A stretch of DNA of 64,000 nucleotides from Blastococcus litoris (GTDB lineage: Bacteria > Actinomycetota > Actinomycetes > Mycobacteriales > Geodermatophilaceae): NCBI RefSeq assembly GCF_003075095.1, contig NZ_QCZF01000001.1:496001-560000 (forward strand), given 5' to 3'. Below the pieces are notes generated by a model. It saw only the letters and a list, made by a program, of their open reading frames with translations, did not search any database and was not told the DNA's origin. Positions within the stretch are counted from its first letter, which is position 1; every line of letters starts with the position of its first letter. The position numbers and the translations under genes were made by a program. This document shows positions 47,488-64,000 of the stretch, one piece after another.

Positions 47488-48468
47488 ATGAGCGCGATCC
47501 GGCAGGCGAACAGCAAGAGCTTGATGCTCTTCTCAGGACGGGCCTACCCGGAGCTCGCCACCGAGATCGCCGGGCACCTCGGCGTCACCCCCACCCCGAC
47601 GGCGTCGTACGAGTTCGCCAACGGCGAGCTGTTCGTCCGCTTCGAGGAGTCGGTGCGCGGCTGCGACGCCTTCGTCGTGCAGAGCCACACCGCGCCGATC
47701 AACACCTGGCTCATGGAGCAGCTGATCATGGTCGACGCGCTCAAGCGCGCCTCGGCCAAGCGGATCACCGTCGTCGCCCCGTTCTTCCCCTACGCCCGGC
47801 AGGACAAGAAGCACCGCGGTCGCGAGCCGATCTCCGCCCGCCTGGTCGCCGACATGTTCAAGACCGCGGGCGCCGACCGGCTGATGGCGGTGGACCTGCA
47901 CACCGCCCAGATCCAGGGCTTCTTCGACGGGCCGGTGGACCACCTGTTCGCCCTGGACCTGCTCGTCGCGCACGTCTGCGAGAAGTGGGGCGACCGCGAG
48001 CTGACGGTCGTCTCGCCCGACTCCGGCCGCGTGCGGGTGTCCGAGCGCTGGAGCGACAAGCTCGGTGGCGTCCCGCTCGCCTTCATCCACAAGACCCGGG
48101 ACCCGATGCGCCCCAACGAGGTCGTCGCCAACCGCGTCGTCGGCGAGGTCGAGGGCCGGGTCTGCATCCTGGTCGACGACATGATCGACACCGGCGGCAC
48201 GATCGTGAAGGCCGCCGAGACGCTGTTCGACGCCGGCGCCGCCGACGTCATCGTGACCGCCACGCACGGCGTCCTGTCCGGTCCCGCCGTCGACCGGCTC
48301 AAGAACAGCCGGGTCAGCGAGGTCATCGTGACCAACACGCTGCCGATCGAGCCGGAGCGGCAGTTCGACAAGCTCACCGTCCTCTCGATCGCCCCGCTCC
48401 TCGCCCGCGCGATCACCGAGGTCTTCGAGGACGGCTCCGTCACCAGCCTTTTCGACGGCGCCTCGTAA
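47488..48468 (+). CDS. prs: Ribose-phosphate pyrophosphokinase
   Basis: Makes PRPP from ribose-5-phosphate and ATP for purines, pyrimidines, His, Trp, NAD and, in this group, decaprenyl-phosphoryl-arabinose. The 326-residue protein has LFSGRAYPELATEIAGHLGV at the start, FPYARQDKKHRGREPISARL, the divalent-metal loop DLHTAQIQGFFDGPVDHL and the PRPP-binding loop LVDDMIDTGGTIVKAAETLF. ATG start 14 bases after glmU with GGGAAGACG upstream. Order glmU-prs-rplY-pth is standard for actinobacteria. Confidence 0.97.
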   Translation: MSAIRQANSKSLMLFSGRAYPELATEIAGHLGVTPTPTASYEFANGELFVRFEESVRGCDAFVVQSHTAPINTWLMEQLIMVDALKRASAKRITVVAPFFPYARQDKKHRGREPISARLVADMFKTAGADRLMAVDLHTAQIQGFFDGPVDHLFALDLLVAHVCEKWGDRELTVVSPDSGRVRVSERWSDKLGGVPLAFIHKTRDPMRPNEVVANRVVGEVEGRVCILVDDMIDTGGTIVKAAETLFDAGAADVIVTATHGVLSGPAVDRLKNSRVSEVIVTNTLPIEPERQFDKLTVLSIAPLLARAITEVFEDGSVTSLFDGAS

Positions 48469-48758: not shown

Positions 48759-49463
48759 GTGGCTGACTTCCGCCTCGAAGCCGAGATCCGCACCGAGTTC
48801 GGCAAGGGCAGCGCCCGCCGCACCCGCCGTGCCGGTCGCGTCCCCGCCGTCCTCTACGGGCACGGCCAGGACGTCGTCCACCTGTCGCTGCCCGCCCGCG
48901 AGTTCGCCGCGGCGCTCCGTAACGGCGGCACCAACGCCCTCCTCACCGTCGTCCTCGACGGCAAGGAGCAGCTCGCCCTGACCAAGGCCGTGCAGCGCGA
49001 CCCGATCAAGCGCGTGCACGAGCACGTCGACCTGGTCATCGTGCGTCGCGGCGAGAAGGTCACCGTCGACGTCCCGGTCGTCGTCGTCGGCGAGACCGGC
49101 CCCGACACCCTGGTGAGCATCGAGCTCAACACCGTGTCGGTCCAGGTCGCCGCCACCAGCATCCCCGAGTCGATCGAGGTCGACGTCGAGGGCCGCGGCG
49201 TCGGCGAGGGCTTCACCGCCGGTGACCTGACGCTGCCGAAGGGCGCCACCCTGCTCACCGACGCCGACGCGCTGGTGGTCAACCTGATGGCCGCCCCGAC
49301 CGCCGAGGCCCTCGAGGCCGAGCTGGAGGAGGCCGAGGCCGAGGCCGGCATCGAGCGCGAGGAGTCCGCCGCCGCCGACGAGGGCGCCGGCCAGGGCGAC
49401 GTCGTCCCCGAGCCGCAGGACCAGGGCAGCGGCGAGTCGATCGAGTCGACCGAGAACAGCTGA
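48759..49463 (+). CDS. rplY: 50S ribosomal protein L25 (CTC form)
   Basis: Binds 5S rRNA in the large subunit. The 234-residue long form has the L25 domain (about residues 1-95: [40 protein letters not shown]) and the TL5/CTC beta-barrel domain (about 100-185: [40 protein letters not shown]). A highly acidic, Glu/Gly/Ser-rich tail of about 50 residues ends the protein, as in other actinobacteria where CTC acts in stress. GTG start with GAGGAG upstream. Confidence 0.96.
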
Positions 49464-49491: not shown

Positions 49492-49520
49492 CGGGGGCGC
49501 CGGCACTGCCGGCGCCCCCG
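49492..49520 (+). terminator. Perfect 13-bp hairpin in the rplY-pth gap
   Basis: CGGGGGCGCCGGC (49492-49504) pairs perfectly with GCCGGCGCCCCCG (49508-49520), loop ACT. It could terminate rplY transcripts. It ends only five bases before the conventional pth GTG, where a ribosome site should be, so it may instead be coding sequence of a pth that begins at CTG 49472, or control pth translation. Confidence 0.55.
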
Positions 49521-49525
49521 TCGCC

Positions 49526-50116
49526 GTGCCCTCCGAGGGCCCGTTCCTCGTCGTCGGGCTCGGCAACCCGGGGCCCGGCTACGCGGGCAACCGGCACAAC
49601 GTCGGCGCCATGGTGCTCGACGAGCTGGCCTCCCGGGCCGACATCAAGCTCTCGCCCGGGAAGGGTGCGCGCTCGCGCGCCGTCTCCGGCGAGGGGCGGC
49701 TGGCCGGCCGCCGCGTCGTGCTGGCCCGGCCCCTGACCTACATGAACGAGTCCGGAGGGCCCGTCCGCGGGCTGCTCGACTACCACCACCTCCCGGCCGA
49801 CGACCTCGTCGTGGTGCACGACGAGCTCGACCTGCCCTTCGCCTCCGTCCGGCTCAAGCGCGGCGGTGGCGAGGGCGGGCACAACGGCCTGCGGTCGATC
49901 TCCCGGTCGACGGGCACGAAGGACTACCTGCGGGTGCGCGTCGGCATCGGCCGCCCGCCCGGCCGCCAGGACCCCGCCGACTTCGTCCTCAAGGACTTCT
50001 CCGCCGTCGAGCGCAAGGAGCTCGACCTGCTCCTCGTCGAGGCCGCGGACGCGCTGGAGGCTCTCCTCGTCAAGGGTCTCGAGGCGGCGCAGAACGAGGT
50101 CCACGCGCGCACCTGA
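49526..50116 (+). CDS. pth: Peptidyl-tRNA hydrolase
   Basis: Recycles peptidyl-tRNA dropped from ribosomes. The 196-residue enzyme has [20 protein letters not shown] (catalytic His in RHNVG, about residues 8-27), [40 protein letters not shown] with the active Asp, and [20 protein letters not shown]. The GTG has no ribosome site and directly follows a strong hairpin; a CTG at 49472, preceded by GAGGGA, is in frame and may be the true start, adding 18 residues ([17 protein letters not shown]). Confidence 0.94.
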
Positions 50117-50317: not shown

Positions 50318-53300
50318 ATGTACGGACGCGTCGCGGCCTGGCCCAAGGTGGCCGTCGCAGGGCTGCTGAGCACCCTTCTCGCCATCGGGACCCTGGGGAC
50401 CCTGCTCGCGGGCACGGCACAGGCCGACACCGCGCCGGCCGACCCGGCGAACCCGGCGACGCCGGCCACCGTCAGCGCCGACCCGCTGCCCACCGTCCAG
50501 ATCGACGGCGTGGCGTGGTCTCAGGTCGTCGTGGGCAACACCGTCTACGTCGGCGGTGAGTTCACCACCGCCCGTCCGGCAGGCGCCGCCCCGGGCGTCA
50601 ACACGGTGCCGCGGAACAACCTCCTCGCGTACGACATCCGCACCGGCGAGCTGATCACCTCGTTCGCCCCCAGCCTCAACGCGCAGGTGAAGACCGTCGC
50701 GGCCTCGCCCGACGGCACCCGGATCTACGTCGGTGGCAGCTTCACCGTCGCCGACGGTCAGCCCCGCTACCGCATCGCGGCCTACGACACCGCGACCGGC
50801 CAGCTCGCCACGGAGTTCACGCCGGGCTTCTCCCAGCAGGTCAAGGCGCTCGCCGTCACCAACGACGCCGTCTACGTCGGTGGCAACTTCACCTGGTCCG
50901 GCACCGAGACCCGCACCCGGCTGGCCGCGTACTCCCGCTCCAACGGCGCGCTCCTCCCGTGGGCGCCGGCGGCGGACGCGCAGGTGCAGACGCTGGCCGT
51001 CTCGCCGGACGCCAGCAAGGTCTACGCCGGCGGCTCGTTCACGAAGCTGACCTCGCCGACCGGCGCGAGCCAGACTGCCCGCGGTCTCGGCGCGATCGAC
51101 GCCGTGACCGGTGAGCCGCTGCCCTTCACGGCCGGCACCGTCATCAACAACACCGGCTCCTCGGCGTCGGTCACCGGCATCTCCGTCGACGCCGACACCG
51201 TGTACGCGTCGGGCTACACCTACGGCCCCGGCACGCTCGAGGGCGTCGTGGCCGCCGACGTGAACACCGGCGCGGTCAAGTGGATCGACGACTGCCACGG
51301 CGACACGTACTCCGTCTGGGCCTCCGGTACCTCGGCCTACGTCGCGGGCCACCCGCACGTCTGCAGCAACATCGGCGGCTTCCCGCAGACCGAGCCGTGG
51401 TCCTTCTACCGCGGCATCGCGTTCAGCAAGGCCGCCGTCGGCAAGGTCGGCACCGAGACCGGCAACTTCGTCGGCCAGCCGGCCCCGCAGCTGCTGACCT
51501 GGTTCCCCGACATCAAGGCGGGCACCTACACCGGCCAGAGCCAGGGCCCCTGGAACGTGTCCGGCAACAGCCAGTACGTCGTCTACGGCGGCGAGTTCCC
51601 CGGCGTCGACGGCGTGGCCCAGCAGGGGCTGGTCCGCTTCGCGGTCCGCCCGCTGGCGCCGAACAAGGTGGGCCCGGACAACAACCCGGAGCTGCAGCCC
51701 GTGGTGCGGTCGGTCGTCGGCGGCACCGCCCGGGTCACCTGGCAGGCGACCCACGACCAGGACAACGAGATCCTGACCTACCGCGTCTACCGCGACGGCA
51801 ACACGACCGTCCCGGTGTACGAGGTCACCCAGGCCTCGACGTTCTGGAAGCGCCCGACGCTGAGCTTCGTGGACGGCAACCTCACCGCCGGCAGCCACCG
51901 CTACCGCGTCACCGCGTCCGACCCGCTGGGCAACGTGGTGAGCACGCCGTGGACCACCGTGGAGGTGGGGGCGCCCGGCACCGGCGGCGTCTCGTACGCC
52001 GACAACGTGCTGCTCGACGGCGCGCAGAACCACTGGCGGCTCGGTGAGGCCTCCGGCACCGTCGCCGAGGACTCGGCCGGCACGTCCGACCTCGCCGTCC
52101 GCGGCAGCACCCTCACGCCCGGCCGGGCCGGCGCCATCTCCGGTGACCCGGACACGGCGATCCAGTTCTACGGGCAGAGCAACAACGGGACCCCCCGCGG
52201 CTTCCTCGCCACGACCACGGCGATCCCGGGCCCGAACGAGTTCACGATCGAGGCGTGGTTCCAGACCACGAGCCGGACCGGCGGCAAGATCATCGGCTTC
52301 GGCAACCGGACGACGGGCAACAGCACCGGCTACGACCGCCACGTCTACATGGATGCCTCGGGCCGCGTGCTCTTCGGCGTCTACCCGGGCCAGGAGCGGA
52401 TCGTGAACAGCACGGCGACGTTCAACGACGGCAAGTGGCACCACGTCGCCGCGTCGCTGAGCCCGTCGGGCATGGCGCTCTACGTGGACGGCGTGCTGGT
52501 CGGCTCGCGCACCGACACGACGGTCGCCCAGGCCTACACCGGGTACTGGCGGGTCGGTGGCGACTCCAGCTGGTCGGGCAACGCGTACTTCACCGGTCTC
52601 ATCGACGAGCCGGCGGTGTACCCCCAGGCCCTCCCTGCCGACCGGGTGCGGGCGCACTACACGCTGGGCACCACCGGCAAGCCGGCGAACATGGCCCCGA
52701 CGGCGACCTTCACGTCGACGGTCACCGACCTGGCGGCCAGCTTCGACGCCGCCTCCTCGCTGGACACCGACGGCACCATCGCGTCCTACGCCTGGGACTT
52801 CGGGGACCAGACGTCGGGCACCGGTGCGACGGCGCAGCACACCTACGCGCAGGCCGGCACCTACACGGTCCGCCTGACCGTCACCGACGACAAGGGCGCG
52901 ACCGGCACCACGACGCGCCAGGTGACGGCGACGGCTCCGCGGGTCAACGAGGCGCCGACGGCCGCCTTCACGACCGCCGTCACGGACCTCGCGGTGCGGG
53001 TCGACGGGTCGGGTTCGGCCGACACCGACGGCACCATCGCGTCCTACGCCTGGGACTTCGGGGACCAGGCGTCGGGCACCGGTGCGACGGCGCAGCACAC
53101 CTACGCGCAGGCCGGCACCTACACGGTCCGCCTGACCGTCACCGACGACAAGGGCGCGACCGGCACCACGACGCGCCAGGTGACGGTCACCGACCCGCCG
53201 GCCGGTCCGCGCGCCGTGGCCCAGGACGCCTTCGAGCGCTCCGTGGCCTCCGGCCTGGGCACCGCCGATGCCGGTGGCGACTGGACGACGGGCGGCTGGA

Positions 53301-54811
53301 CCGGGTCCGCGTCGGTGTCCGGTGGAGCCGGGCACGTCGCGGTGGCGAGGGCCGGTGGCCGCACCAACGGCACCCTGTCCGGCGTCTCGTCCACCGAGGT
53401 GGCGGTGCAGACGTCCCTGGCGCTGCCGCAGATGCCGACGGGTGGCGGGATCTTCTTCTCCGTCGACGGACGGCGCTCCGACGCCGGCTACTACCGCGCG
53501 ACGGTGAAGGTGAACGCGACCGGATCGGTGAACCTGATCCTCACCCGCGGTGCGGGCGGTACGGAGACCGGGCTGCGCACCATCAAGGTCCCCGGCCTGG
53601 ACTACACGCCCGGCACCGTGCTGAACGTGCGGTTCGACGTGAGCGGCGTCGGCACCTCGACGCTCGCGGCGAAGGTCTGGGCCAAGGGCACCCCGGAGCC
53701 GGCCGGCTGGCAGAACACCGTCACCGACACGACGGCGGCCCTCCAGGCCGCGGGCACCGTCGGGTACGAGCTCTACGTGTCGGGTTCGGCGACCGCGCTG
53801 CCGGTCGTCCTCGACCTCGACGACTTCTGGGCCGGCCCCGCCGGGACCACCCCGGCGGACACCGCGCCCCCGGTCGTCGAGCCCCCGGCCAACACCGCCC
53901 CGACCGCGGCCTTCGTGCCGACGGTGACCGGGATGGGCGTGGCCGTGGACGCCACCTCGTCCTCGGACGCGGACGGCACCATCGCCGCCTACGCCTGGGA
54001 CTTCGGTGACCAGACGTCGGGGACGGGTGCGACGGCGCAGCACACCTACGCGCAGCCGGGCACGTACACGATCCGGCTCACCGTCACGGACGACGACGGC
54101 GCCACGGGCACGCGGACGCAGGAGGTCACCGTCGCCCAGCCGGGTCCCGCGCCCGAAGCCTTCGCGCTGGACGCCTTCGGGCGCTCGGTCGCGACGGGTC
54201 TGGGCACCGCCGACACCGGCGGCGACTGGACGACCGGCGGCTGGACCGGCTCGGCGTCGGTCTCCGACGGTGCGGCGCACATCGCGGTGGCGCGCGCCGG
54301 TGGCCGCTCGAACGGGTACCTGGACTCGGTCTCCGCCGACCAGGTCGCGGTGCAGCTGTCGATGCGCCTGCCGCAGATGCCCACCGGCGGCGGGATCTTC
54401 TTCTCGACGTCGGCGCGGCACACCGCTGCCGGGGAGTACCGGGCGACCACCAAGGTCACCGCGGCCGGCGGGGTCAACCTGATCCTCACCCGGGTCGTGG
54501 GCGGCGTCGAGACCAACCTCCGGTCGATCAAGGTCGGGAACCTGACCTACACGCCGGGCATGGTCCTCAACGTCCGGTTCGACGTCAGCGGCGTCGGGAC
54601 CTCGACCCTGGGGGCCAAGGTCTGGGCCGACGGGACGGCCGAGCCGGCCGAGTGGCAGACGACGGCCACCGACGCCGCGCCCGAGCTCCAGGTGGCCGGT
54701 TCGGTCGGCTTCGAGCTCTACGTCTCGGGCTCGGCGACGGCGCTGCCGCTGGTGCTCGACCTCGACGACCTGTGGGTCGGCCGCGCCGGCACCGGGCCCG
54801 TCGAGGAGTGA
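50318..54811 (+). CDS. Giant secreted beta-propeller/FN3/LamG/PKD protein 1
   Basis: A 1,497-residue exported protein. Signal peptide about 1-36 (cleavage after GTAQA). Residues ~50-440 form propeller-like repeats with recurring VYVGGEFT / IYVGGSFT / VYVGGNFT motifs (delta-60/DUF5122 type). Then an FN3-like part (~450-550), a LamG domain (~560-790; FTIEAWFQTTSRTGGKIIGF, WHHVAASLSPSGMALYVDGV), two PKD domains (~800-960; SYAWDFGDQ), an unnamed ~210-residue beta domain (~965-1185), a third PKD and a second copy of the unnamed domain (~1280-1495). No LPxTG or C-terminal membrane anchor, so it is released or held non-covalently. Probably binds glycan; enzyme activity not evident. ATG at 50318 preferred to a start 51 bases upstream. 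Confidence 0.85.
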   Translation: MYGRVAAWPKVAVAGLLSTLLAIGTLGTLLAGTAQADTAPADPANPATPATVSADPLPTVQIDGVAWSQVVVGNTVYVGGEFTTARPAGAAPGVNTVPRNNLLAYDIRTGELITSFAPSLNAQVKTVAASPDGTRIYVGGSFTVADGQPRYRIAAYDTATGQLATEFTPGFSQQVKALAVTNDAVYVGGNFTWSGTETRTRLAAYSRSNGALLPWAPAADAQVQTLAVSPDASKVYAGGSFTKLTSPTGASQTARGLGAIDAVTGEPLPFTAGTVINNTGSSASVTGISVDADTVYASGYTYGPGTLEGVVAADVNTGAVKWIDDCHGDTYSVWASGTSAYVAGHPHVCSNIGGFPQTEPWSFYRGIAFSKAAVGKVGTETGNFVGQPAPQLLTWFPDIKAGTYTGQSQGPWNVSGNSQYVVYGGEFPGVDGVAQQGLVRFAVRPLAPNKVGPDNNPELQPVVRSVVGGTARVTWQATHDQDNEILTYRVYRDGNTTVPVYEVTQASTFWKRPTLSFVDGNLTAGSHRYRVTASDPLGNVVSTPWTTVEVGAPGTGGVSYADNVLLDGAQNHWRLGEASGTVAEDSAGTSDLAVRGSTLTPGRAGAISGDPDTAIQFYGQSNNGTPRGFLATTTAIPGPNEFTIEAWFQTTSRTGGKIIGFGNRTTGNSTGYDRHVYMDASGRVLFGVYPGQERIVNSTATFNDGKWHHVAASLSPSGMALYVDGVLVGSRTDTTVAQAYTGYWRVGGDSSWSGNAYFTGLIDEPAVYPQALPADRVRAHYTLGTTGKPANMAPTATFTSTVTDLAASFDAASSLDTDGTIASYAWDFGDQTSGTGATAQHTYAQAGTYTVRLTVTDDKGATGTTTRQVTATAPRVNEAPTAAFTTAVTDLAVRVDGSGSADTDGTIASYAWDFGDQASGTGATAQHTYAQAGTYTVRLTVTDDKGATGTTTRQVTVTDPPAGPRAVAQDAFERSVASGLGTADAGGDWTTGGWTGSASVSGGAGHVAVARAGGRTNGTLSGVSSTEVAVQTSLALPQMPTGGGIFFSVDGRRSDAGYYRATVKVNATGSVNLILTRGAGGTETGLRTIKVPGLDYTPGTVLNVRFDVSGVGTSTLAAKVWAKGTPEPAGWQNTVTDTTAALQAAGTVGYELYVSGSATALPVVLDLDDFWAGPAGTTPADTAPPVVEPPANTAPTAAFVPTVTGMGVAVDATSSSDADGTIAAYAWDFGDQTSGTGATAQHTYAQPGTYTIRLTVTDDDGATGTRTQEVTVAQPGPAPEAFALDAFGRSVATGLGTADTGGDWTTGGWTGSASVSDGAAHIAVARAGGRSNGYLDSVSADQVAVQLSMRLPQMPTGGGIFFSTSARHTAAGEYRATTKVTAAGGVNLILTRVVGGVETNLRSIKVGNLTYTPGMVLNVRFDVSGVGTSTLGAKVWADGTAEPAEWQTTATDAAPELQVAGSVGFELYVSGSATALPLVLDLDDLWVGRAGTGPVEE
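52763..53185 (+). repeat. 165-bp near-identical direct repeat within giant gene 1
   Basis: Copies at 52763-52927 and 53021-53185, period 258 bases, encode the core of two successive PKD domains and differ by about one base (CAGACG versus CAGGCG in the dipeptide after FGD). The intervening sequence is less conserved, which points to recent duplication or gene conversion of this segment. Confidence 0.85.
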
Positions 54812-54815
54812 CTCT

Positions 54816-54857
54816 CCGGGAGGGGCGTGGTGACCTCGGTCACCACGCCCCTCCCGG
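54816..54857 (+). terminator. Strong terminator after giant gene 1
   Basis: A perfect 19-base stem: 54816-54834 (begins CCGGGAGGGGCG) pairs with 54839-54857 (ends CGCCCCTCCCGG), loop CTCG, beginning four bases after the stop. No T-run. It insulates the glycan cluster from the giant gene. Confidence 0.85.
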
Positions 54858-54998
54858 ACACGCGACGGCCGTCCTCACATCGGGGTGAACGGCCGCCGCT
54901 CGCATTGACGCCACGGTGACTCACTGTGAAGGTGAGTGCTCCTGACCGGCGAGGGCCCGACGAAGGGCCTGGTGGGCGTCGGAAAAGACAACCGCACG

Positions 54999-55024
54999 GT
55001 GACAAACCAGTCACAGACTGTCAC
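54999..55024 (+). promoter_or_regulatory. GTGAC/GTCAC repeat array before the glycan-cluster gene
   Basis: GTGAC (54999-55003), GTCAC (55010-55014) and GTCAC (55020-55024): an inverted pair followed by a direct copy at 10-base spacing, just before the ribosome site GGGGGAG and the ATG at 55041. Helically phased half-sites suggest a regulator. A further GTGACTCACTGTGA lies at 54917-54930. The rest of 54858-55040 shows nothing else. Confidence 0.45.
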
Positions 55025-55040
55025 GAAGTTCGGGGGAGTC

Positions 55041-56534
55041 ATGCTGCTCGACCACAAGCAGCGGGATGCCGGACTGGCGCCCTCGACCGGCGTCGCGTCC
55101 GCCGGTCGCACCTCGCCCCAGCCCGACGTCCGCCGTTCCTCGCCGGCGTGGGTCCGCCGGTACGCACTCGTCCTGGTCGCGTTCGAGTCCCTCGCCGCGT
55201 CGGTGGCGGGCGCCGCGGTCCTGCTGACCCGGCCCGGCGGCATCAACACCTCGAGCAGCCTGTTCTGGGCGACGCTCGTCCTCGTCCCCCTCTGGCCGGC
55301 GCTGCTGGCCTTCACCGGCGCCCACTCCGAGCGGGTCTTCGGCACGGGCAGCGACGAGTACCGCCGGGTCGGCCGCGCCGGCCTCCTGGTGCTGGCCCTC
55401 GTCGGGTTCAGCAGCTACGCCCTGGCGCTCGACCTCAGCCGCGCGCTGGTCGTCCTCGCCCTGCCCGCCCTCACGGTCGTGACCCTGCTCGGCCGCTACG
55501 TGGCCCGGACCCAGCTGCGCCGGCTGCGCGCGGTCGGGCGCTGCACCAAGCGGGTGATCGTGGTCGGCCGCGGTGGAGCGGTGCTCGAGCTCGTCCGCCG
55601 CCTCCAGCGCGAGCACTACGCGGGCCTCGACGTCGTCGCCGCCTGCGTGACACCCGACGACCGGGCCCGGGTGGGGGAGCAGGCGGGTGTTCCCGTCGGC
55701 GGACTGGACGACGTCCTGTCCCTGGCGGCGGAGCTGAACGTCGACACCATCGCCGTCACGTCCGCCAGCGAGACCGCCGCCCAGTACCTGCGGCAGCTGT
55801 CCTGGCAGCTGGAGGGCACCGGCATCGAGCTCCTGGTGGCGCCCGGCCTGATCGAGGTCGCCGGCCCGCGGCTGCACATCCGCCCCTTCGAGGGGCTGCC
55901 CCTCCTCTCGGTCGAGCAGCCCTGCCTCGAGGGCTGGCGCCGGGTGGTCAAGGGCGGGGTGGACCGCTGCGCCGCCGCCCTGGCGGTGCTGGTCCTGGCG
56001 CCGGTCCTGGTCGTGCTCGCGCTCGCCGTCCGGTTCACCAGCACCGGGCCCGTCCTCTACCGGCAGGAGCGGGTGGGCCTCGGGGGCCGCACGTTCACCA
56101 TGCTGAAGTTCCGGAGCATGGTGGCCGACGCCGACCAGCGCCTGGGCGACCTGCTGCCGGGCAACATCTCCGACGGGCTGCTGTTCAAGATGCGCGCCGA
56201 CCCGCGGGTCACGCCGCTGGGCCGGTGGCTGCGCCGTCTGTCGCTCGACGAGCTGCCGCAGCTGTTCAACATCCTGGGCGGCTCGATGTCGCTGGTCGGT
56301 CCCCGGCCGCCGCTTCCCGGCGAGGTGGCGAAGTACGACACCTCGGTGAGCCGGCGGCTCCTGGTCAAGCCGGGCCTGACCGGCCTGTGGCAGATCTCCG
56401 GGCGCAGCGACCTCTCCTGGGAGGAGTCGGTCCGGCTGGACCTCCGCTACGTCGAGAACTGGTCGCTCGCCCTCGACCTGCTCATCCTCTGGAAGACCGC
56501 CCGCGCGGTCCTCTCCCGCTCCGGCGCCTACTGA
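55041..56534 (+). CDS. Polyprenyl-phosphate sugar-1-phosphate transferase (WbaP/CpsE type)
   Basis: A 497-residue initiating enzyme of exopolysaccharide or capsule synthesis that moves a sugar-1-phosphate from a nucleotide sugar to undecaprenyl/decaprenyl phosphate. Four N-terminal membrane helices (about 35-150), a CoA-binding-like domain (about 175-300; KRVIVVGRGGAVLELVRRLQ), a fifth hydrophobic helix (about 310-335) and the catalytic bacterial-sugar-transferase domain with YRQERVGLGGRTFTMLKFRS, RLSLDELPQLFNILGGSMSL and VGPRPPLPGEV. UDP-glucose from GalU is a possible donor. ATG at 55041 with GGGGGAG upstream. First gene of the cluster. Confidence 0.94.
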   Translation: MLLDHKQRDAGLAPSTGVASAGRTSPQPDVRRSSPAWVRRYALVLVAFESLAASVAGAAVLLTRPGGINTSSSLFWATLVLVPLWPALLAFTGAHSERVFGTGSDEYRRVGRAGLLVLALVGFSSYALALDLSRALVVLALPALTVVTLLGRYVARTQLRRLRAVGRCTKRVIVVGRGGAVLELVRRLQREHYAGLDVVAACVTPDDRARVGEQAGVPVGGLDDVLSLAAELNVDTIAVTSASETAAQYLRQLSWQLEGTGIELLVAPGLIEVAGPRLHIRPFEGLPLLSVEQPCLEGWRRVVKGGVDRCAAALAVLVLAPVLVVLALAVRFTSTGPVLYRQERVGLGGRTFTMLKFRSMVADADQRLGDLLPGNISDGLLFKMRADPRVTPLGRWLRRLSLDELPQLFNILGGSMSLVGPRPPLPGEVAKYDTSVSRRLLVKPGLTGLWQISGRSDLSWEESVRLDLRYVENWSLALDLLILWKTARAVLSRSGAY

Positions 56535-56665
56535 CCCGGAGCTGCTCACTCCCCGGAGGGGGAAGGGGCAGCGCGGAAGGACCCGCACCCCCTAGCGTCA
56601 GCGTCGACGCCGCGTCCCGCCCCGCCGGGACCAGCCCGCCCGAACGCCGACCGAACGGACCTCAC

Positions 56666-57856
56666 GTGCAAGCCCTGAGCATCGCCATGGTCGGCACCCG
56701 CGGTGTCCCGGCCCGGTACGGGGGCTTCGAGACCGCGGTGGAGGAGGTCGGCCGCAGGCTGGCCGCCGCCGGGCACCGCGTGGTCGTCTACTGCCGGACG
56801 GCCGGCGACGACCGTCCCGAGCGGTACCTGGGCATGGAGCTCGTGCACCTCCCGGCCGCCCGCAAGCGCTCGCTGGAGACCCTGAGCCACTCGGCGCTCT
56901 CCGTGCTGCACCTGCTCCGGCACCGCACCGACGCCGCGTTCGTCTTCAACGCCGCCAACGCCCCGCTGCTGCCGCTCGTCCGCGCGGCCGGCATCCCGGT
57001 CGCCACCCACGTCGACGGCCTGGAGTGGCGCCGGGCCAAGTGGGGCGGCGCCGGGCGGCGCTACTACCGGGCCGCCGAGGCGCTGGCCGTGCGGTGGAGC
57101 GACGCGCTCATCGCCGACGCCCAGGGGATCGCCGACTACTACCGCCGCGAGTTCGACGCGCCCACGACGCTGCTCACGTACGGGGCGCCGCTCGTCGCGC
57201 CCGGCACCGAGCGGCTGGCCGAGCTCGGGCTCGAGCCGGGTGGCTACCACCTGGTCGTCGCGCGCTTCGAGCCGGAGAACCACGTCGACGTCATCGTCGA
57301 CGGCTACCGCCGCAGCGGTGCGCGCAAGCCGCTCGTCGTGGTCGGCTCGGCTCCCTACGCCGACGAGTACACCGCGCGCGTGCACGGCCTCGCCGACGAG
57401 CGGGTGCGCTTCCTCGGCGGGGTCTGGGACCAGGTCCAGCTCGACGCGCTCTACGCCCACTCGGCCACGTACCTGCACGGGCACTCGGTCGGCGGCACCA
57501 ATCCCTCGCTGCTGCGCGCCCTGGGCGCCGGGGCCGCGGTCCTCGCCTTCGACGTGGACTTCAACCGCGAGGTGGCCGGTGCGTCGGGCCGGTACTTCGC
57601 CGGCCCGGACGACGTCGCGGCCCTCGTGACCGCCGCCGAGGCCGACCCCGCGGGCACCGAGCAGGCCGGGCGGCTCGCCCGCCGGCTCGCGGCGAGCTAC
57701 GACTGGGACGACGTCGCGGCCGGCTACGAGCGGCTGGCCGCCCGCCTGGCCGCCGGCGACGTCCCTGCCACCCGTCCGAGCGGTCGCCGCCGGGCCGCGG
57801 CCGGCGGCCCCGCCGCCGAGCTCGTACCCACCCCCGGCCCCGGAGGGCACCCATGA
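56666..57856 (+). CDS. DUF1972/GT4-type glycosyltransferase
   Basis: A 396-residue cytoplasmic glycosyltransferase. It opens with the DUF1972 signature MVGTRGVPARYGGFETAVEE (about residues 9-28) and continues with a GT-B fold: VATHVDGLEWRRAKWGGAGR, LVVARFEPENHVDVIVDGYR and YLHGHSVGGTNPSLLRALGA (the nucleotide-sugar acceptor block with the conserved acid replaced by N-P-S-L-L context, as usual for this subfamily). A Pro/Arg/Ala tail ends it. It likely adds a sugar to the lipid-linked primer made by the preceding enzyme. The 131 bases before it (56535-56665) show nothing distinctive. GTG start. Confidence 0.9.
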   Translation: MQALSIAMVGTRGVPARYGGFETAVEEVGRRLAAAGHRVVVYCRTAGDDRPERYLGMELVHLPAARKRSLETLSHSALSVLHLLRHRTDAAFVFNAANAPLLPLVRAAGIPVATHVDGLEWRRAKWGGAGRRYYRAAEALAVRWSDALIADAQGIADYYRREFDAPTTLLTYGAPLVAPGTERLAELGLEPGGYHLVVARFEPENHVDVIVDGYRRSGARKPLVVVGSAPYADEYTARVHGLADERVRFLGGVWDQVQLDALYAHSATYLHGHSVGGTNPSLLRALGAGAAVLAFDVDFNREVAGASGRYFAGPDDVAALVTAAEADPAGTEQAGRLARRLAASYDWDDVAAGYERLAARLAAGDVPATRPSGRRRAAAGGPAAELVPTPGPGGHP

Positions 57857-58680
57857 GCGCGACCCCCGACACCGATCCGCGGATCTCCCTGCCGACCCAG
57901 CGGGCCGACCGCGCGGGGGAGAACACGCCGCAGAGCCCGCCTCCGCGACCGGCACCGGAGTCCATCGGTGCCACGCTGCGGCGGCTCTCCTCGGCGCAGA
58001 AGGGTGCGAAGGGCGCCCCCGCGTACTCGCGCTTCGTCAACCGCAAGCTCGGCCGGGTGCTCGCGGCGCTGGCCTTCCACGCCGGCCTGACGCCGAACGC
58101 GGTGACCGCGATCAGCGCCGCCTCCACCTTCACCGGCATCGCGCTGCTGGCGCTCGTGAGCCCGTCCTGGGGACTCGGCATCGCCGTCACCGCCTGCCTG
58201 GTGCTCGGCTACGCGTTCGACGCGGCCGACGGCCAGCTGGCCCGCCTGCGCGGCGGCGGCAGCCCCGCGGGGGAGTGGCTGGACCACATGGTGGACGCGG
58301 TGAAGATCTCCAGCCTGCACCTCGCCCTGCTGGTCGGCGCCTACCGCTTCGAGCTCGTGGAGCGGGGGCCGTGGCTGCTCGTCCCGATGGGGTTCACCGT
58401 CGTGGCCGCCGTCCTGTTCTTCGGCACCATCCTCAACGAGGCGCTGCGCGAGCGGCACGGTGCCGCGACCCGCGCTCAGCCGACCGGTGAGCGACCCAGC
58501 GTGCTGCGCTCGCTGCTCGTCGCCCCCACCGACTACGGCCTGCTCTGCCTCGTGTTCCTCCTGCTCGGCGCGCCCGCCGTCTTCTACGGTGCGTACTCGT
58601 TCCTGTTCGCTGCCACCGCGGGCTACCTGGCACTGGCCTGCGTCAAGTGGTTCCGGGAGATCGGACGGTTGCCACGATGA
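57853..58680 (+). CDS. CDP-alcohol phosphatidyltransferase family protein
   Basis: A 275-residue integral membrane enzyme. The signature D-G-x2-A-R-x8-G-x3-D-x3-D is present as AADGQLARLRGGGSPAGEWL then DHMVDA (about residues 120-146). Helices follow at about 75-115, 150-190 and 215-265. The first ~55 residues are a cytoplasmic, Pro-rich extension. The family makes phospholipids or transfers phospho-polyols such as inositol or glycerol phosphate. Within a polysaccharide cluster it may build a phosphodiester-linked surface lipid or polymer; the substrates are unknown. The ATG overlaps the previous stop and the stop overlaps the next ATG (ATGA both times). Confidence 0.92.
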   Translation: MSATPDTDPRISLPTQRADRAGENTPQSPPPRPAPESIGATLRRLSSAQKGAKGAPAYSRFVNRKLGRVLAALAFHAGLTPNAVTAISAASTFTGIALLALVSPSWGLGIAVTACLVLGYAFDAADGQLARLRGGGSPAGEWLDHMVDAVKISSLHLALLVGAYRFELVERGPWLLVPMGFTVVAAVLFFGTILNEALRERHGAATRAQPTGERPSVLRSLLVAPTDYGLLCLVFLLLGAPAVFYGAYSFLFAATAGYLALACVKWFREIGRLPR

Positions 58681-59357
58681 GCCGCGAAGAGACCAGCACC
58701 GCCGACCCGTCCGCCGACGTCCCGGACGCGGGCGCCAGGCGCACGCGCCTGCGGCTGCTGCTGGCCGCCGCGGCGGCCGTCCTCGTGGCGGCCCTGGTCG
58801 TCGTGCTGCTGGTCGTCAACGGGGACGACGACGAGCCCGCGGACCCCGCTGCGTCGCGGATCCCGGTGCCCACCGCGGCCGTGCCCTCGAGCACGGCGGC
58901 CACCACCCCGGCCGTGCCGGCCCCGACCGGTCCGGTCGTGAACGCCGACGACCTCCCGCCGGCCCTCGACCCGGTGCCGCTGGACGGCACGGCGGACGCC
59001 GGCACCGGCATCACCGCCACGCTCCCGGCCATCGAGGCGATCGAGGGCACGGGGGTCGGGCCGGGCAACGTCGCCGGGCCGGCGCTGCGCGTCACCGTGC
59101 GCATCCGGAACGGTTCCGGCGAGCCCGTCGTCCTCGACGGCGTGGCCGTCAACCTCTACACCGGCGCCGACCTGACGCCGGCGTCCCCCCTCGACGACCC
59201 GTCGCAGGAGCTGTTCACCGGGCGGCTGGAGCCCGGCGAGTCCGCGGACGGTGTCTACGTGTTCACCGTCCCCACCGACCGGCGGGACGCGGTGACCGTC
59301 GAGGTGGGCTACGGCCCGGGCGTCCCGTTCATGCGCTGGACGGGCCCCGTCGGCTGA
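58677..59357 (+). CDS. Membrane-anchored extracytoplasmic protein, DUF4352-like
   Basis: A 226-residue protein with one N-terminal membrane helix (about residues 28-48, LLLAAAAAVLVAALVVVLLV), a Pro/Thr/Ala-rich linker that is a plausible mannosylation target (about 60-90), and a C-terminal beta-sandwich domain (about 105-226) with ALRVTVRIRNGSGEPVVLDG and VNLYTGADLTPASP, like the DUF4352/Ig-like extracytoplasmic domains. Start overlaps the previous stop (ATGA), so it belongs to the glycan cluster. It may bind the polymer at the membrane surface. Confidence 0.72.
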   Translation: MSREETSTADPSADVPDAGARRTRLRLLLAAAAAVLVAALVVVLLVVNGDDDEPADPAASRIPVPTAAVPSSTAATTPAVPAPTGPVVNADDLPPALDPVPLDGTADAGTGITATLPAIEAIEGTGVGPGNVAGPALRVTVRIRNGSGEPVVLDGVAVNLYTGADLTPASPLDDPSQELFTGRLEPGESADGVYVFTVPTDRRDAVTVEVGYGPGVPFMRWTGPVG

Positions 59358-59444
59358 CGCCTCCCGTGTGTTCCGCGCCACCCTGGCGGCCGGATATCAC
59401 CGTGCGTGAGGGAAGGTTGCGAGACGGTCACGGAGAACCTCGCG

Positions 59445-59509
59445 TGATACCCGGTATCAGGCGCCCCAACCCCTGGTGGGCCGTTGCATGTAACGCTTAG
59501 TATCCGTCG
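59445..59509 (+). promoter_or_regulatory. Control region of giant protein 2: palindrome and GTRACGC motif
   Basis: TGATAC-CCG-GTATCA (59445-59459) is a 15-base palindrome, and GTAACGCTTAGTATCCGTCG (59490-59509) matches the motif found twice before giant gene 1. TAGTAT (59498-59503) may be a -10 box about 60 bases before the ATG. GGGGGAACCACC before the ATG is shared with giant gene 1. Confidence 0.5.
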
Positions 59510-59562
59510 CCCGGATCGGTCTGGTCCTCGGGCGCACGCGGAGAACAGCCGGGGGAACCACC

Positions 59563-62500
59563 ATGACTGCACGGCGGATCGACATCCCGAGGCGGGTGCT
59601 CGGCCTCCTGCTCGGCCTGCTCCTCGTCGCCGGTTTCCTCGGGGTCGCCGCGCCCACCCCGGCCCGGGCGGACTCGGCGCCGCTGAACCCGGCCAACCCG
59701 ACGACGCCGACCTCCGTGGCGGCCGACCGCCTCCCGACCGTCCAGATCAACGGCGTCGTGTGGCAGTCGGTCGTCGTCGGCGACACCGTCTACGTCGGTG
59801 GCAAGTTCACCCGGGCCCGGCCGGCCGGCGCCGCCCCCGGCGTCAACGAGGTCGTCCGCAACAACATGCTGGCGTTCGACATCAACACCGGCGAGCTCAT
59901 CACCTCCTTCGCCCCCGACCTCAACGGCCAGGTGCTCGGGATGGCGGCGAGCCCCGACGGCTCGCGCATCTACGTCGGCGGCGACTTCACCACCGCCAAC
60001 GGCCAGAGCCGCAACCGGGTGGCGGCGTACGACACCGCCACCGGAGCCCTGGTGAGCACCTTCCGCCCCAGCGTCAGCGGGCAGGTGCGGGCGATCGCCG
60101 CCACCAACAGCACCGTGTACCTCGGCGGCGCGTTCACCGCCGTCGGCGGGGTCGCCCGGAAGCGGCTGGCGGCGGTCACCGCTGCCTCGGGCGCGCTGGT
60201 CGAGGGCTGGGCGCCGTTCCCCGGCGAGGGCTCGACGGCCGGCAACCGCAACGGCGCGACCGGGACGAGCACCACCGTGATGGACCTGGTCATCGCCGGG
60301 GGGCAGGTCATCGCCGGTGGGCGCTTCGACAGCCTGAACGGCATCAAGAGCACCGGGGTGGGCGCCATCGACGCCTCGACCGGCGCCACCCTGCCGTTCG
60401 CGATCAACCAGCTGATCACCAACCAGGGCATCAACTCCGCGATCTACAGCCTGGCCACCGACGGCACGCTGGTCTTCGGGACCGGCTACGACTACTACGG
60501 GCCGGGCAACCTCGAGGGGTCCTTCTCCGCCGTCGCCGTCGGCGGTGCCGTCGTGTCCATCAACGACTGCCGCGGGGACACCTACGGGAGCTACTCGACG
60601 GGCGGCCTGCTGTACCTGGCCGGGCACCCGCACTTCTGCCAGAACATCGGCGGCTATCCCGAGTCGCCGTCCATGCGCGCGACCGCGGTGAGCATCGCCC
60701 CGTCCGGCGTGGTCGGCACGCAGACGCTGCGCAACTCGAACTTCGTCGGCCAGCCGGCGGCCAAGCTGCAGACCTTCTACCCGGTCCTCGACACCGGCAC
60801 GTTCACCGGCCAGAGCCAGGCCGCCTGGAGCGTCGGCGGCAACGACGAGTACGTCGTCTACGGCGGCGAGTTCCCGTTCGTCAACGGCACCCGGCAGCAG
60901 GGCCTGGTGCGCTTCGCCGTCCCGTCGATCGCCCCGAACGACCGCGGGCCGGCGTCCTCGGGTCTGGTCGCGCCCACGGCGAGCACCCTCGTGCCCGGCA
61001 CCGTCCGGCTCACCTGGACCACCACGAGCGACCAGGACAACGAGTACCTCACGTACCGCGTCTTCCGCGACGGCGGGGCGACCCCCGTCGGGGAGACGAC
61101 GGTGTCCTCCGACTGGTACCGGAAGCCCAGCGCCGGGTTCACCGACGTCGGGGTGCCGGCCGGCACCCACCGGTACCGCGTGGTCGCCACCGACCCGTGG
61201 GGGAACGTGGCGAACTACCCCGAGGTCTCGATCGACGTCGCCGGTGGCGGCGCGACGACACGGCCCTACGCGCAGGCGGTCCGCAGCGCCGGAGCCCAGG
61301 ACCACTGGCCGCTGACCGAGACCACCGGGGTCGCCCGCGACCAGGTCCAGAACCTCGACCTGACCGCGAGCTCCGGGGTGACGCGGGGCCAGGCGGGGGC
61401 GATCACGGGTGACTCCGACCCCTCCTACCGGTTCAGCGGCTCCAACGCGTTCCTCTCGACGCAGACCGCGATCCCGGCACCCACGACGTTCACCGTCGAG
61501 GCCTGGTTCCGGACGAACTCGACGGCAGGCGGCAAGATCATCGGCTTCGGCAACGCCCGCACCGGTAACAGCACCACGCACGACCGCAGCGTCTACGTCG
61601 ACGAGTCCGGCCGGCTGGTGTTCGGCGTCTACGACGGGGCACGGCGCACGATCCAGAGCCCCGGCACGGTCGAGGACGGCGCCTGGCACCACGTCGCTGC
61701 GTCGCTGAGCTCGAGCGGAGCCGCGCTCTACCTCGACGGCGTGCTGGTGGGCTCGCTCTCCGGTGTCACCACGGCGCAGCCGAACACCGGCTACTGGCGG
61801 GTGGGTGGTGACACCTCCTGGTCGGGGGCGAACTACTTCAACGGCTGGATCGACGAGCCCGCGGTCTACCTCTCCGCGCTCTCGCCGCTCGAGGTGGCGG
61901 GGCACCACGCCCTGGGGGCCGGGACGACCGTTCCCAACGTGGCGCCGACGGCTGCGTTCACGTACACCGCGACGAACCTGAGCGTGGCGTTCGACGGGAC
62001 GTCGTCGACCGATCCGGAGAACGGCGCGCTGACCTACGCGTGGAACTTCGGGGACGGCGGCACCTCGACCGAGGCGAAGCCGACGCACCCGTACGCGGCG
62101 GCCGGCGACTACCAGGTGACGCTGACGGTCACCGACCCGCAGAACGCCAGCGACCCGGAGACGAAGACCGTCACCGTCACCGCCCCGCCGAACCAGCCGC
62201 CGACGTCGGCGTTCACGTTCACGCCGAACGCCCTGAGCGTCGCGTTCGACGGCACGTCGTCGACCGATCCGGAGAACGGCGCGCTGACCTACGCGTGGGA
62301 CTTCGGGGACGGCGGGACCTCGACCGAGGCGAAGCCGACGCACCCGTACTCCGCCGGGGGCACCTACCCGGTGACGCTCGTCGTGAAGGACCCGGCCGGG
62401 AACACCGGCAGCTCGACCCAGCAGGTGCAGGTCACCGACCCGGGCACCCCACCGCAGGGCATCGCCGTGGACTCGTTCGGCCGGACGGTCGGCAACGGGT

Positions 62501-64000
62501 GGGGCTCGGCCGACACGGGCGGGGCGTGGACCGTGCTGAACGGCCCGGGCGCGTCGTCGTCGGTGTCGGCCGGCGCCGGGCGCCTGCAGTTCGGCACCGC
62601 GGGTCACACCTCGTACTTCACCCTCGGGGGCGTCTCCGCCGGTGACGTCGCGGTGCAGGGCACGTTCACGCTCGACACGCCGCCGACCGGCGGCGGGGTG
62701 TTCGCCTCGCTCGTCGCCCGGCGGGTCGACGCCGCGAACATGTACCGCGCGATCGTCAAGTTCGTGAACGACGGCCGGGTCACGCTGACGATCGCCCGCA
62801 TGGCAGGGGGGACGGAGACCACCCTCCGCGGGATCACCGTCCCCGGGCTCACCTACACCCCGGGCACGCCGCTGCTGGTGCGCTTCGACGTGAGCGGTGC
62901 GTCGACGATGGACCTGCGGGCGAAGGTGTGGGCGGCCGGCACGCCGGAGCCGACGGCCTGGCAGAACACCACCACCGACAGCACCGCCGCCCTGCGGGTG
63001 CCCGGGGCCATCGGCGGCACGGTCTACGTCTCCGGTTCGGCGACGGCACTGCCCGTGCGGTTCTCGGTCGACGACTGGTGGGCCGGCGCCTCCGGAACCG
63101 CACCGGGCACGACCCCGCCGGCGAACCAGCCGCCCACGGCAGCGTTCACGCACGTGGCGACCGGGCTGAGCGTGGCGTTCGACGGGACGTCGTCGACCGA
63201 TCCGGAGAACGGCGCGCTGACCTACGCGTGGGACTTCGGGGACGGCGGGACCTCGACCGAGGCCAAGCCGACGCACCCGTACGCGGCGGCCGGCGACTAC
63301 CAGGTGACCCTGACGGTCACCGACCCGCAGAACGCCAGCGACCCGGAGACGAAGACCGTCACCGTGACCGCCCCGCCGCCGCCGAACCAGGCGCCGACGG
63401 CTGCGTTCACGTACACCGCGACGAACCTGAGCGTGGCGTTCGACGGGACGTCGTCGACCGATCCGGAGAACGGCGCGCTGACCTACGCGTGGAGCTTCGG
63501 CGACGGGGGGACCTCGACCGAGGCGACGCCGACGCACCCGTACGCGGCGGCCGGCGACTACCAGGTGACGCTGACGGTCACCGACCCGCAGAGCGCCAGC
63601 GACCCGGAGACGAAGACCGTGTCGGTCAGCGCCGGTGGTCCGCCGCCGAACCAGGCGCCGACGGCCGCGTTCACGTACGCCGCCACGGGGCTGAGCGTGG
63701 CGTTCGACGGGACGTCGTCGACCGATCCGGAGAACGGCGCGCTGACCTACGCGTGGAACTTCGGGGACGGCGGGACCTCGACCGAGGCGACGCCGACGCA
63801 CCCGTACGCGGCGGCGGGCGACTACCAGGTGACGCTCACGGTCACCGACCCGCAGAACGCCACCGACCCGGAGACCAAGCAGGTGACCGTCACCGCAGCG
63901 GCCACGCCGCCCATCGCGGCCGACGCCTTCGCCCGCACGGTCACCAGCGGGTGGGGGGACGCCGACACCGGTGGACCCTGGACGGTCTCCGTCCCGCTGG
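59563..64000 (+). CDS. Giant secreted beta-propeller/LamG/PKD protein 2 (3' truncated by window)
   Basis: The open frame runs to the right edge; about 1,479 residues are visible. Signal peptide about 1-36 (VLGLLLGLLLVAGFLG, cleavage after PARA). Residues ~50-440 are propeller repeats (TVYVGGKFT, RIYVGGDFT, TVYLGGAFT) aligned with giant protein 1, then an FN3-like part (~465-560), LamG (~570-790; FTVEAWFRTNSTAGGKIIGF), two PKD domains (~793-960; YAWNFGDGG), the unnamed beta domain (begins SFGRTVGNGWGSADTGGAWT near 62475), three more PKD domains (~1188-1445) and the start of another beta domain (begins AFARTVTSGWGDAD near 63928). Paralogue of the protein at 50318-54811. ATG start with GGGGGA upstream. 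Confidence 0.85.
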   Translation, partial: MTARRIDIPRRVLGLLLGLLLVAGFLGVAAPTPARADSAPLNPANPTTPTSVAADRLPTVQINGVVWQSVVVGDTVYVGGKFTRARPAGAAPGVNEVVRNNMLAFDINTGELITSFAPDLNGQVLGMAASPDGSRIYVGGDFTTANGQSRNRVAAYDTATGALVSTFRPSVSGQVRAIAATNSTVYLGGAFTAVGGVARKRLAAVTAASGALVEGWAPFPGEGSTAGNRNGATGTSTTVMDLVIAGGQVIAGGRFDSLNGIKSTGVGAIDASTGATLPFAINQLITNQGINSAIYSLATDGTLVFGTGYDYYGPGNLEGSFSAVAVGGAVVSINDCRGDTYGSYSTGGLLYLAGHPHFCQNIGGYPESPSMRATAVSIAPSGVVGTQTLRNSNFVGQPAAKLQTFYPVLDTGTFTGQSQAAWSVGGNDEYVVYGGEFPFVNGTRQQGLVRFAVPSIAPNDRGPASSGLVAPTASTLVPGTVRLTWTTTSDQDNEYLTYRVFRDGGATPVGETTVSSDWYRKPSAGFTDVGVPAGTHRYRVVATDPWGNVANYPEVSIDVAGGGATTRPYAQAVRSAGAQDHWPLTETTGVARDQVQNLDLTASSGVTRGQAGAITGDSDPSYRFSGSNAFLSTQTAIPAPTTFTVEAWFRTNSTAGGKIIGFGNARTGNSTTHDRSVYVDESGRLVFGVYDGARRTIQSPGTVEDGAWHHVAASLSSSGAALYLDGVLVGSLSGVTTAQPNTGYWRVGGDTSWSGANYFNGWIDEPAVYLSALSPLEVAGHHALGAGTTVPNVAPTAAFTYTATNLSVAFDGTSSTDPENGALTYAWNFGDGGTSTEAKPTHPYAAAGDYQVTLTVTDPQNASDPETKTVTVTAPPNQPPTSAFTFTPNALSVAFDGTSSTDPENGALTYAWDFGDGGTSTEAKPTHPYSAGGTYPVTLVVKDPAGNTGSSTQQVQVTDPGTPPQGIAVDSFGRTVGNGWGSADTGGAWTVLNGPGASSSVSAGAGRLQFGTAGHTSYFTLGGVSAGDVAVQGTFTLDTPPTGGGVFASLVARRVDAANMYRAIVKFVNDGRVTLTIARMAGGTETTLRGITVPGLTYTPGTPLLVRFDVSGASTMDLRAKVWAAGTPEPTAWQNTTTDSTAALRVPGAIGGTVYVSGSATALPVRFSVDDWWAGASGTAPGTTPPANQPPTAAFTHVATGLSVAFDGTSSTDPENGALTYAWDFGDGGTSTEAKPTHPYAAAGDYQVTLTVTDPQNASDPETKTVTVTAPPPPNQAPTAAFTYTATNLSVAFDGTSSTDPENGALTYAWSFGDGGTSTEATPTHPYAAAGDYQVTLTVTDPQSASDPETKTVSVSAGGPPPNQAPTAAFTYAATGLSVAFDGTSSTDPENGALTYAWNFGDGGTSTEATPTHPYAAAGDYQVTLTVTDPQNATDPETKQVTVTAAATPPIAADAFARTVTSGWGDADTGGPWTVSVPL
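61939..63890 (+). repeat. Five near-identical PKD-coding units in giant gene 2
   Basis: The 20-base sequence GCGTTCGACGGGACGTCGTC (or a one-base variant) recurs at 61987, 62242, 63175, 63436 and 63700, each at the same place in a PKD domain. Units 3-5 are tandem with periods of 261 and 264 bases, units 1-2 are 255 apart, and the unnamed beta domain lies between the groups. Nucleotide identity is close to complete over most of each unit, synonymous positions included. Confidence 0.88.

Follow-up and report, generated by a model that had tools for sequence, protein, structure and literature searches.

Actinomycetes are abundant in dry soils, on stone and in many biofilms, and to our (non-exhaustive) knowledge no matrix protein of this group has been tied to a defined polysaccharide. 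The closest described parallel to the system considered here is found in Vibrio cholerae, where the rbm cluster, situated between two vps polysaccharide clusters, includes the gene for the matrix protein RbmC. The propeller of Bap1 and RbmC is reported to bind the VPS polysaccharide (PMC10102183). Here we describe a locus of Blastococcus litoris in which genes for the assembly of a lipid-linked glycan stand together with genes encoding two very large secreted proteins, hereafter the giants. The starting material was a stretch of 64,000 nucleotides (the window; C1:496001-560000 of the 4.63-Mb genome), to which positions below refer, and the contig was read beyond the window end. Our analyses show that, in soil- and stone-dwelling actinobacteria, the glycan genes and the genes for giant secreted proteins are inherited together, and suggest a widespread surface system in which the giants probably bind or organise the polysaccharide. 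By analogy, the giants may be matrix proteins that bind or organise the polysaccharide of their own locus and work like Bap1 and RbmC of Vibrio, a reading to which we assign a probability of about 0.5.

The likeness to Bap1 and RbmC is one of architecture, not of sequence comparison: all are large, secreted, unanchored, modular and based upon a beta-propeller. The accessory domains differ, with LamG, PKD and an unnamed beta domain of approximately 210 amino acids (UBD) in the giants, and beta-prisms and mucin-binding domains in the Vibrio proteins; no beta-prism was found among the Pfam matches of the giants, the coverage of beta-prisms by Pfam not being established. Unlike the Vibrio system, that described here resides in Gram-positive hosts, includes a CDP-alcohol phosphotransferase, a cytidylyltransferase and a DUF4352-like tether, and features arrays of up to five giants. 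Pneumococcal-type cps loci, which to our knowledge contain no giant secreted propeller proteins, offer a second point of comparison, in that an initiating glycosylphosphotransferase is followed by a DUF1972 glycosyltransferase (GT) of family GT4, as in Cps2E/Cps2T; GacB is likewise a DUF1972 enzyme. GacB and Cps2T are both described as adding beta-1,4-rhamnose, for Cps2T by way of a reference-list entry (PMC6802508). A third likeness is to the archaeal protein 1l0q, in which a YVTN propeller is joined to PKD; it differs from the giants in having neither LamG nor UBD, and superposing the multi-domain chains gives a poor fit (rmsd 25 over 595 columns). Finally, in the S-layer glycan (slg) loci of Bacillota a large surface protein is encoded next to an initiating transferase and GTs, whereas export in the locus described here appears to be of the flippase/Wzz type and no oligosaccharyl transferase was recognised in it. 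Searches of the open literature found no description of a glycan-plus-propeller locus, nor any exopolysaccharide paper containing both "PKD domain" and "LamG".

The association between giants and glycan is apparent from joint presence and absence. Among 61 relatives, searched for the propeller (E<=1e-140) and for the DUF1972 GT (E<=1e-60), 24 carry both, one carries the propeller only, one the GT only, and 35 neither (Fisher test without phylogenetic correction, 1e-14); at the level of genus the corresponding counts over 16 genomes are 6, 1, 0 and 9. The genome with a propeller only (G014) is 76% complete, and the fragment concerned holds a CDP-alcohol phosphotransferase, a DUF4352-like protein and a giant, while that with the GT only (G040) has a divergent propeller 3 kb away. 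Linkage is tight: in the 23 relatives with both genes on one contig, G040 counted, the nearest propeller and GT are separated by a median of 1.9 kb and at most 6.3 kb, and in one further genome (G044) they lie on separate contigs. Joint presence and absence together with linkage led us to reject pure positional coincidence. In one genome (G010:C1:2359607-2360751) the DUF1972 GT gene is split between two frames, reflecting either a pseudogene or a sequencing error.

A similar pattern is observed at greater phylogenetic distance. A class sample of 295 genomes yielded 18 with a strong propeller (E<=1e-120). The GT accompanies it in 16 of these, in 15 cases with no more than 10.7 kb between the two on a shared contig and in one (G192) split over contigs; the remaining two (G147 and G327) lack the GT at threshold, yet carry a glycosylphosphotransferase and other GTs beside their giants. 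In a phylum sample of 296 genomes, a propeller was found in 12 at E<=1e-40, only two of these being strong, both from Actinomycetes. A contig scan returned at least 527 propeller relatives among at least 596 pattern matches, and the best 77 loci, all from Actinomycetota (Modestobacter, Geodermatophilus, Klenkia, Blastococcus, Arthrobacter, Cellulomonas, Clavibacter, Leifsonia, Subtercola, Microlunatus, Mumia and others), were searched at 1e-10 with proteins encoded by the locus of the window. Glycan-assembly genes number at least one in 65 of these 77 loci and at least three in 59, while every gene was absent from all 20 control loci (20 kb each, at chosen spots in four carrier genomes). Because the propeller and the DUF1972 GT co-occur and lie close together, and because the controls are empty, a link between protein and glycan is strongly supported. 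The 12 loci without glycan genes comprise six shorter than 15 kb and six of full length; the DUF1972 GT is present in every genome of the latter six, and in four of them another giant is found at a distance of 2-10 kb from that GT.

The most frequent neighbour of the giants is the DUF4352-like gene, found in 64 of the best 77 loci. Of 65 DUF4352-like open reading frames (ORFs), 53 overlap a giant or lie within 400 bp of one, 49 encode a hydrophobic segment and nine a lipobox-like motif. In a record of the oral species Actinomyces oris, genes for a cytidylyltransferase, a sugar transferase, a flippase, a CDP-alcohol phosphotransferase, a DUF1972 GT, two propeller proteins and a chain-length protein are gathered near prs, and the position of the DUF4352-like protein is occupied by a lipoprotein without a match to the DUF4352 query. 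Across Blastococcus, Arthrobacter, Cellulomonas, Microlunatus and A. oris, one protein family stands beside glycan genes that recur from locus to locus. The second propeller protein of A. oris (L177 11987-13561) has a tail rich in Lys, Asp and Trp in place of LamG, PKD and UBD.

The giants themselves conform closely to an earlier note on this DNA, which had described two exported paralogues of one architecture without sortase or membrane anchor. Giant 1 (1497 aa; 50318..54811, forward strand) consists of a signal peptide, a predicted seven-bladed propeller (50483-51667; fold from a homologue), an FN3-like domain, LamG (approximately 52028-52672), two PKD domains, a UBD (53210-53848), a further PKD and a second UBD (54152-54808). 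Giant 2 (1667 aa; 59563..64000 within the window, forward strand, with its stop at window-equivalent 64566) has a signal peptide, propeller (59728-60942), FN3-like domain, LamG, two PKD domains, a UBD (62455-63090), three further PKD domains and a second UBD beginning at 63904. The two are 52% identical over 1268 aa, and the translation of each begins with a Sec-type signal peptide, as judged by eye. In both, Pfam partly covers the propeller with Rax2, followed by Laminin_G_3 and PKD_4, the last in three stretches of giant 1 and five of giant 2. As to the FN3 domain named in the note, no FN3 model matched the giants at E<=0.01, but a small all-beta domain occupies that position in the AlphaFold model of a homologue. 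Neither an LPxTG motif nor a C-terminal transmembrane segment was found, from sequence, in any of 123 complete distinct giants longer than 800 aa from the B. litoris, relative and named loci (nine cut by locus ends were excluded).

Giants occur in tandem arrays of one to five per locus. From multi-copy loci, 67 of 76 giants are closest to a giant of another locus, a count inflated by near-identical strains among the fetched loci, and the propeller of B. litoris giant 1 is 57% identical to that of giant 2 and 69% identical to that of Modestobacter caceresii. Since so many multi-copy giants have their closest relative elsewhere, the paralogues appear to be old and kept; recent duplication or exchange of paralogues is unsupported by the same count.

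The fold of the propeller was approached by modelling a short Arthrobacter terrae homologue with AlphaFold (L069; 878 aa, 68-row alignment, mean pLDDT 91.2 for the whole model); in this model the propeller is predicted to be a regular seven-bladed WD40-like scaffold (VIA Z 31.6, rmsd 2.0-2.3). The best Foldseek match of this model is the archaeal surface-layer propeller-PKD protein 1l0q (E 2.5e-11, 14% identity). Two short motifs, C-x-G-D followed by H-x-H-x-C, are present in all 140 distinct propellers; in 131 the first takes the form DC-x-GD, and the remaining nine differ solely in the first D. These data bear upon the main rival to the matrix reading, namely that the propeller is an enzyme acting upon the exported polymer (a lyase, a hydrolase, or a transferase that trims or attaches it), with LamG, PKD and UBD merely targeting it. 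We consider this unlikely. Invariance of both motifs would suit an active site, H-x-H-x-C persists even in the divergent propellers of three genomes (G040, G048 and G059), 54 sequences give a mean column identity of 58%, which is high for a protein that is secreted, and GH43 enzymes appear on the Foldseek list, though with poor whole-chain TM. On the other hand, the two cysteines may simply form a disulphide, and Pfam matched no catalytic carbohydrate-active domain in the giants, although ChitinaseA_N and Sde0182_C gave matches over the PKD repeats. Additionally, the 50 listed VIA rows consist of propellers of the WD40 type and its relatives, many of which are scaffolds that bind peptides or proteins; this is compatible with enzymes too.

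The invariant motifs, which could mark a catalytic or metal site, belong with several observations that weigh against a matrix role coupled to the glycan of the locus. Firstly, the scaffold-like fold predicted for the propeller reveals no function. Secondly, of the 41 class genomes in which a DUF1972 GT was found, 25 are without a strong propeller, while UBD occurs without a strong propeller in 10 of the 25 UBD-bearing class genomes and is missing from three of the 18 with a strong propeller. Thirdly, the 61 relatives hold 58 strong propeller copies, eight of which are situated outside the main locus (44 are within 40 kb of a GT on one contig, and the other 14 comprise six on the short contigs of G014 and G044 together with these eight). 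Of six such off-locus copies fetched, three adjoin a DUF4352-like gene only, two have no query match beside them and one has both a glycosylphosphotransferase and a DUF4352-like gene; two of the three in G052 were outside the fetched set. A second giant pair in G327 and one giant in G192 likewise have no glycan matches nearby, and in two of the full-length named exceptions (G352 and G353) no giant lies near the GT. Lastly, in G013, a genome without this system, two other PKD giants, with propellers of a divergent type, stand beside mfd (L126 595-5373 and 6735-11156).

The earlier note had asked whether the paralogues are scattered without glycan genes in most relatives, and the 61 genomes answer mostly in the negative: the eight off-locus copies are confined to six genomes (G004, G017, G018, G027, G054 and, with three, G052), all of which also carry the main locus. 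Giants can therefore be used without a full adjoining glycan locus, but within our sample they never occur in genomes without that locus. Its wider proposal of a surface system linked to a glycan is supported by co-occurrence and linkage, while polymer binding or an adhesin role is inferred, an enzymatic role or glycosylation of the giants being less probable alternatives. Giants of the propeller type that stand alone, at a distance from glycan genes, are exemplified in main-locus carriers by L166, L169, L170, L172 and L174, with a DUF4352-like gene beside three of the five.

With regard to the glycan genes, the four lying between the giants are as the earlier note had named them. A polyprenyl glycosylphosphotransferase (55041..56534; TIGR03025 415.7 bits, cut-off 295.55; PF02397 3.6e-66), of the type that transfers the first sugar-1-phosphate onto a lipid carrier, is followed by the Cps2T/GacB-like DUF1972 GT4 (56666..57856; PF09314 4.5e-18; NF046071 3e-54, below its cut-off), an integral membrane CDP-alcohol phosphotransferase (57853..58680; PF01066 7.9e-10, 39.8 bits, cut-off 22) and a membrane-tethered DUF4352-like extracellular beta protein (58677..59357; DUF4352 23.5 bits, short of its 25.9 cut-off), all on the forward strand. 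The note's picture of giants flanking a four-gene unit, in a six-gene arrangement, is partly an artefact of the window: the giants do lie on either side of the four genes and the arrangement is present, but it makes up only the left-hand portion of a longer locus, which continues for approximately 12.6 kb beyond giant 2, up to mfd. In order, this extension encodes a flippase (Wzx; 64664-66094; PF01943 33.2 bits, cut-off 28.2), a GT4, a GT2-like protein, a hydrophobic Wzz-like ORF on the opposite strand (69225-71690), a Wzz/BY-kinase (71907-73466; Wzz 36.1 bits, cut-off 25.5; AAA_31 53.5 bits, cut-off 27), a low-molecular-weight phosphotyrosine phosphatase (LMWPc 67.2 bits, cut-off 23.2), a cytidylyltransferase and two GTs; mfd and the GT2-like gene were identified from sequence. 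The sole match of the hydrophobic ORF is to Wzz (22.1 bits, below the cut-off of 25.5), and it is a candidate place for the Wzy polymerase. The whole polysaccharide locus thus lies between pth and mfd, giant 2 sits inside it, and the window end cuts it. An initiating glycosylphosphotransferase, a flippase, a chain-length/BY-kinase protein and a phosphatase all score above their family cut-offs, and on gene content we file the locus as a Wzx/Wzy-type surface polysaccharide locus with a putative polymerase and a new kind of resident protein.

A working scheme for the matrix reading can be drawn from these components. The glycosylphosphotransferase would load a sugar-1-phosphate onto undecaprenyl phosphate, the DUF1972 enzyme would add a second sugar, probably beta-1,4-rhamnose by homology with Cps2T and GacB, and further GTs would finish the repeat unit. 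The cytidylyltransferase and the CDP-alcohol phosphotransferase would provide a phospho-alcohol group, and flippase, polymerase and Wzz/BY-kinase would carry out export and polymerisation. The giants would exit via Sec without an anchor and be held by the polymer through the propeller, the UBD or both, with LamG and PKD modules bridging to other chains or surfaces, while the membrane-tethered DUF4352-like protein may keep giant or polymer at the cell.

The same components could serve a different end, in which the giants are glycoproteins that receive the glycan of the locus, as happens with S-layer glycosylation loci. The layout, with an initiating transferase and a rhamnosyltransferase-like GT beside a large secreted protein, recalls such loci, and an archaeal S-layer protein is the top Foldseek match. 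Furthermore, a minimal allele consisting only of a glycosylphosphotransferase, a giant and a DUF4352-like protein is found between pth and mfd in Klenkia (L083) and in G018 (L160). We nonetheless regard this alternative as quite unlikely: the Wzz/BY-kinase and flippase indicate a long polymer, a set of one to five modular paralogues does not resemble a lone S-layer protein, and no oligosaccharyl-protein transferase was recognised among the Pfam matches, although the Wzy-like ORF could be one.

The interval between pth and mfd is itself a variable glycan locus in Geodermatophilaceae, and our results mark it as such. Read from coordinates, a giant lies within approximately 50 kb of mfd on the same contig in 15 of 20 family carriers. 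Among non-carriers, for which 18 stretches were fetched, several of them uninformative, pth directly adjoins mfd in G006 (L124), the interval of G002 and G022 holds a glycosylphosphotransferase alone, that of G012 and G026 a glycosylphosphotransferase with 3-4 kb lacking any match to the queries, and that of G015 (L127) a different exopolysaccharide (EPS) cluster without giants. Alleles of the interval were seen across L123, L124, L125, L127, L128 and L130. Such variability, together with the different PKD giants beside mfd in G013, would suit a view in which the giants are mere cargo of a hot spot, neighbours of the glycan genes without a shared function. That view is extremely improbable, being contradicted by the linkage data: this propeller family stays linked to the same glycan genes outside pth-mfd and in distant families as well, and the paralogues are old and kept. 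The G013 giants, which match the propeller weakly, lack both motifs and UBD, include one with a malectin domain and have a Wzz protein nearby, are possibly a parallel version of the system. Weak propeller matches are also present on the mfd-holding contigs of G001, G055 and G057.

The UBD, of which each giant has two copies, is covered by no Pfam or NCBIfam model; 61 UBDs scanned singly against Pfam gave weak matches only, each in five members at most, and a search against PDB sequences gave no match at E<=0.1 and five at chance level up to E 1. In the AlphaFold model of the A. terrae homologue the domain has 15 strands and is all-beta apart from short helix turns. The possibility that it is a divergent LamG received no support (hhalign probability 1.5%, with just two LamG sequences), and the VIA list, filled by propeller rows, is uninformative on its fold. 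The carbohydrate-binding module structure 2c26 stands at Foldseek rank 30 with the homologue model and is a mere lead, the aligned part not being given. Use of UBD as an exclusive marker of the system was dropped in view of the 10 class genomes noted above.

UBD is also found outside the giants. Within the window, a secreted metallophosphoesterase with PKD and UBD is encoded on the reverse strand (12669..14588; UBD match C1:508672-509304; PF00149 3.9e-8, PKD_4 1.1e-23), and its enzyme domain occurs in four of the 61 relatives, all giant-bearing, which are too few to count. Fourteen phage records, from Streptomyces phages in 12 cases, contain UBD-like sequence (29-37% identity), and the matched genes are annotated as minor tail or virion structural (seven), carbohydrate-binding (one) or hypothetical (five), one record being unannotated. 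Examples of such Streptomyces phage genes, for minor tail or carbohydrate-binding proteins, are L175 6001-6405 and L176 6001-6417. The profile phrog_24476, annotated as phosphodiesterase, is matched by 51 of 61 UBDs, though not by the first UBD of giant 1, and the giant 2 UBD matches its C-terminal part. Three viral fold matches have UBD-sized alignments, their aligned range not being listed, and one of these is an Arthrobacter phage minor tail protein. By sequence resemblance, the presence of UBD on phage tail proteins and a secreted phosphoesterase would suit a surface-binding module, and the stretch in phage tail genes is a possible clue to receptor binding and hence to the host range of actinophages.

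A bolder and decidedly tentative extension is that of an actinomycete-wide glycan-plus-propeller system whose polymer bears a phosphodiester-linked alcohol, supplied by the CDP-alcohol phosphotransferase and cytidylyltransferase and recognised by UBD. Tandem giants would then be old specialised paralogues making a matrix particular to each species, and G013-type giants a parallel version for another glycan. If true, such recognition would explain why UBD is found on giants, on the secreted phosphoesterase and on actinophage tail proteins. The locus offers a testable role for two domains without a model of their own, namely the UBD and the propeller bearing the C-x-G-D / H-x-H-x-C motif.

To the left of the locus, all on the forward strand, lie prs, a conserved neighbour encoding ribose-phosphate pyrophosphokinase (47488..48468; PF13793 3.4e-48), an L25-like ribosomal protein gene (rplY; 48759..49463) and a pth-like peptidyl-tRNA hydrolase gene forming the left border (49520..50116), the latter two named from their translations; the order prs-L25-pth recurs in many relatives. 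Giant 1 is followed by a hairpin (54815..54858, forward strand) with a perfect 20-bp stem and no T run (fold -50.8 kcal/mol, z -7.8), which is likely a terminator, and because this strong hairpin ends giant 1, the gene is probably its own transcription unit. An Rfam scan of L003 returned no family at gathering score and two sub-threshold miRNA matches. Both giants carry GGGGGAACCAC directly 5' of the start codon (window 50303-50320 and 59545-59565), and GGGAACC shortly before a start-like codon was found in just six of 142 propeller-upstream regions, among them those of both B. litoris giants.

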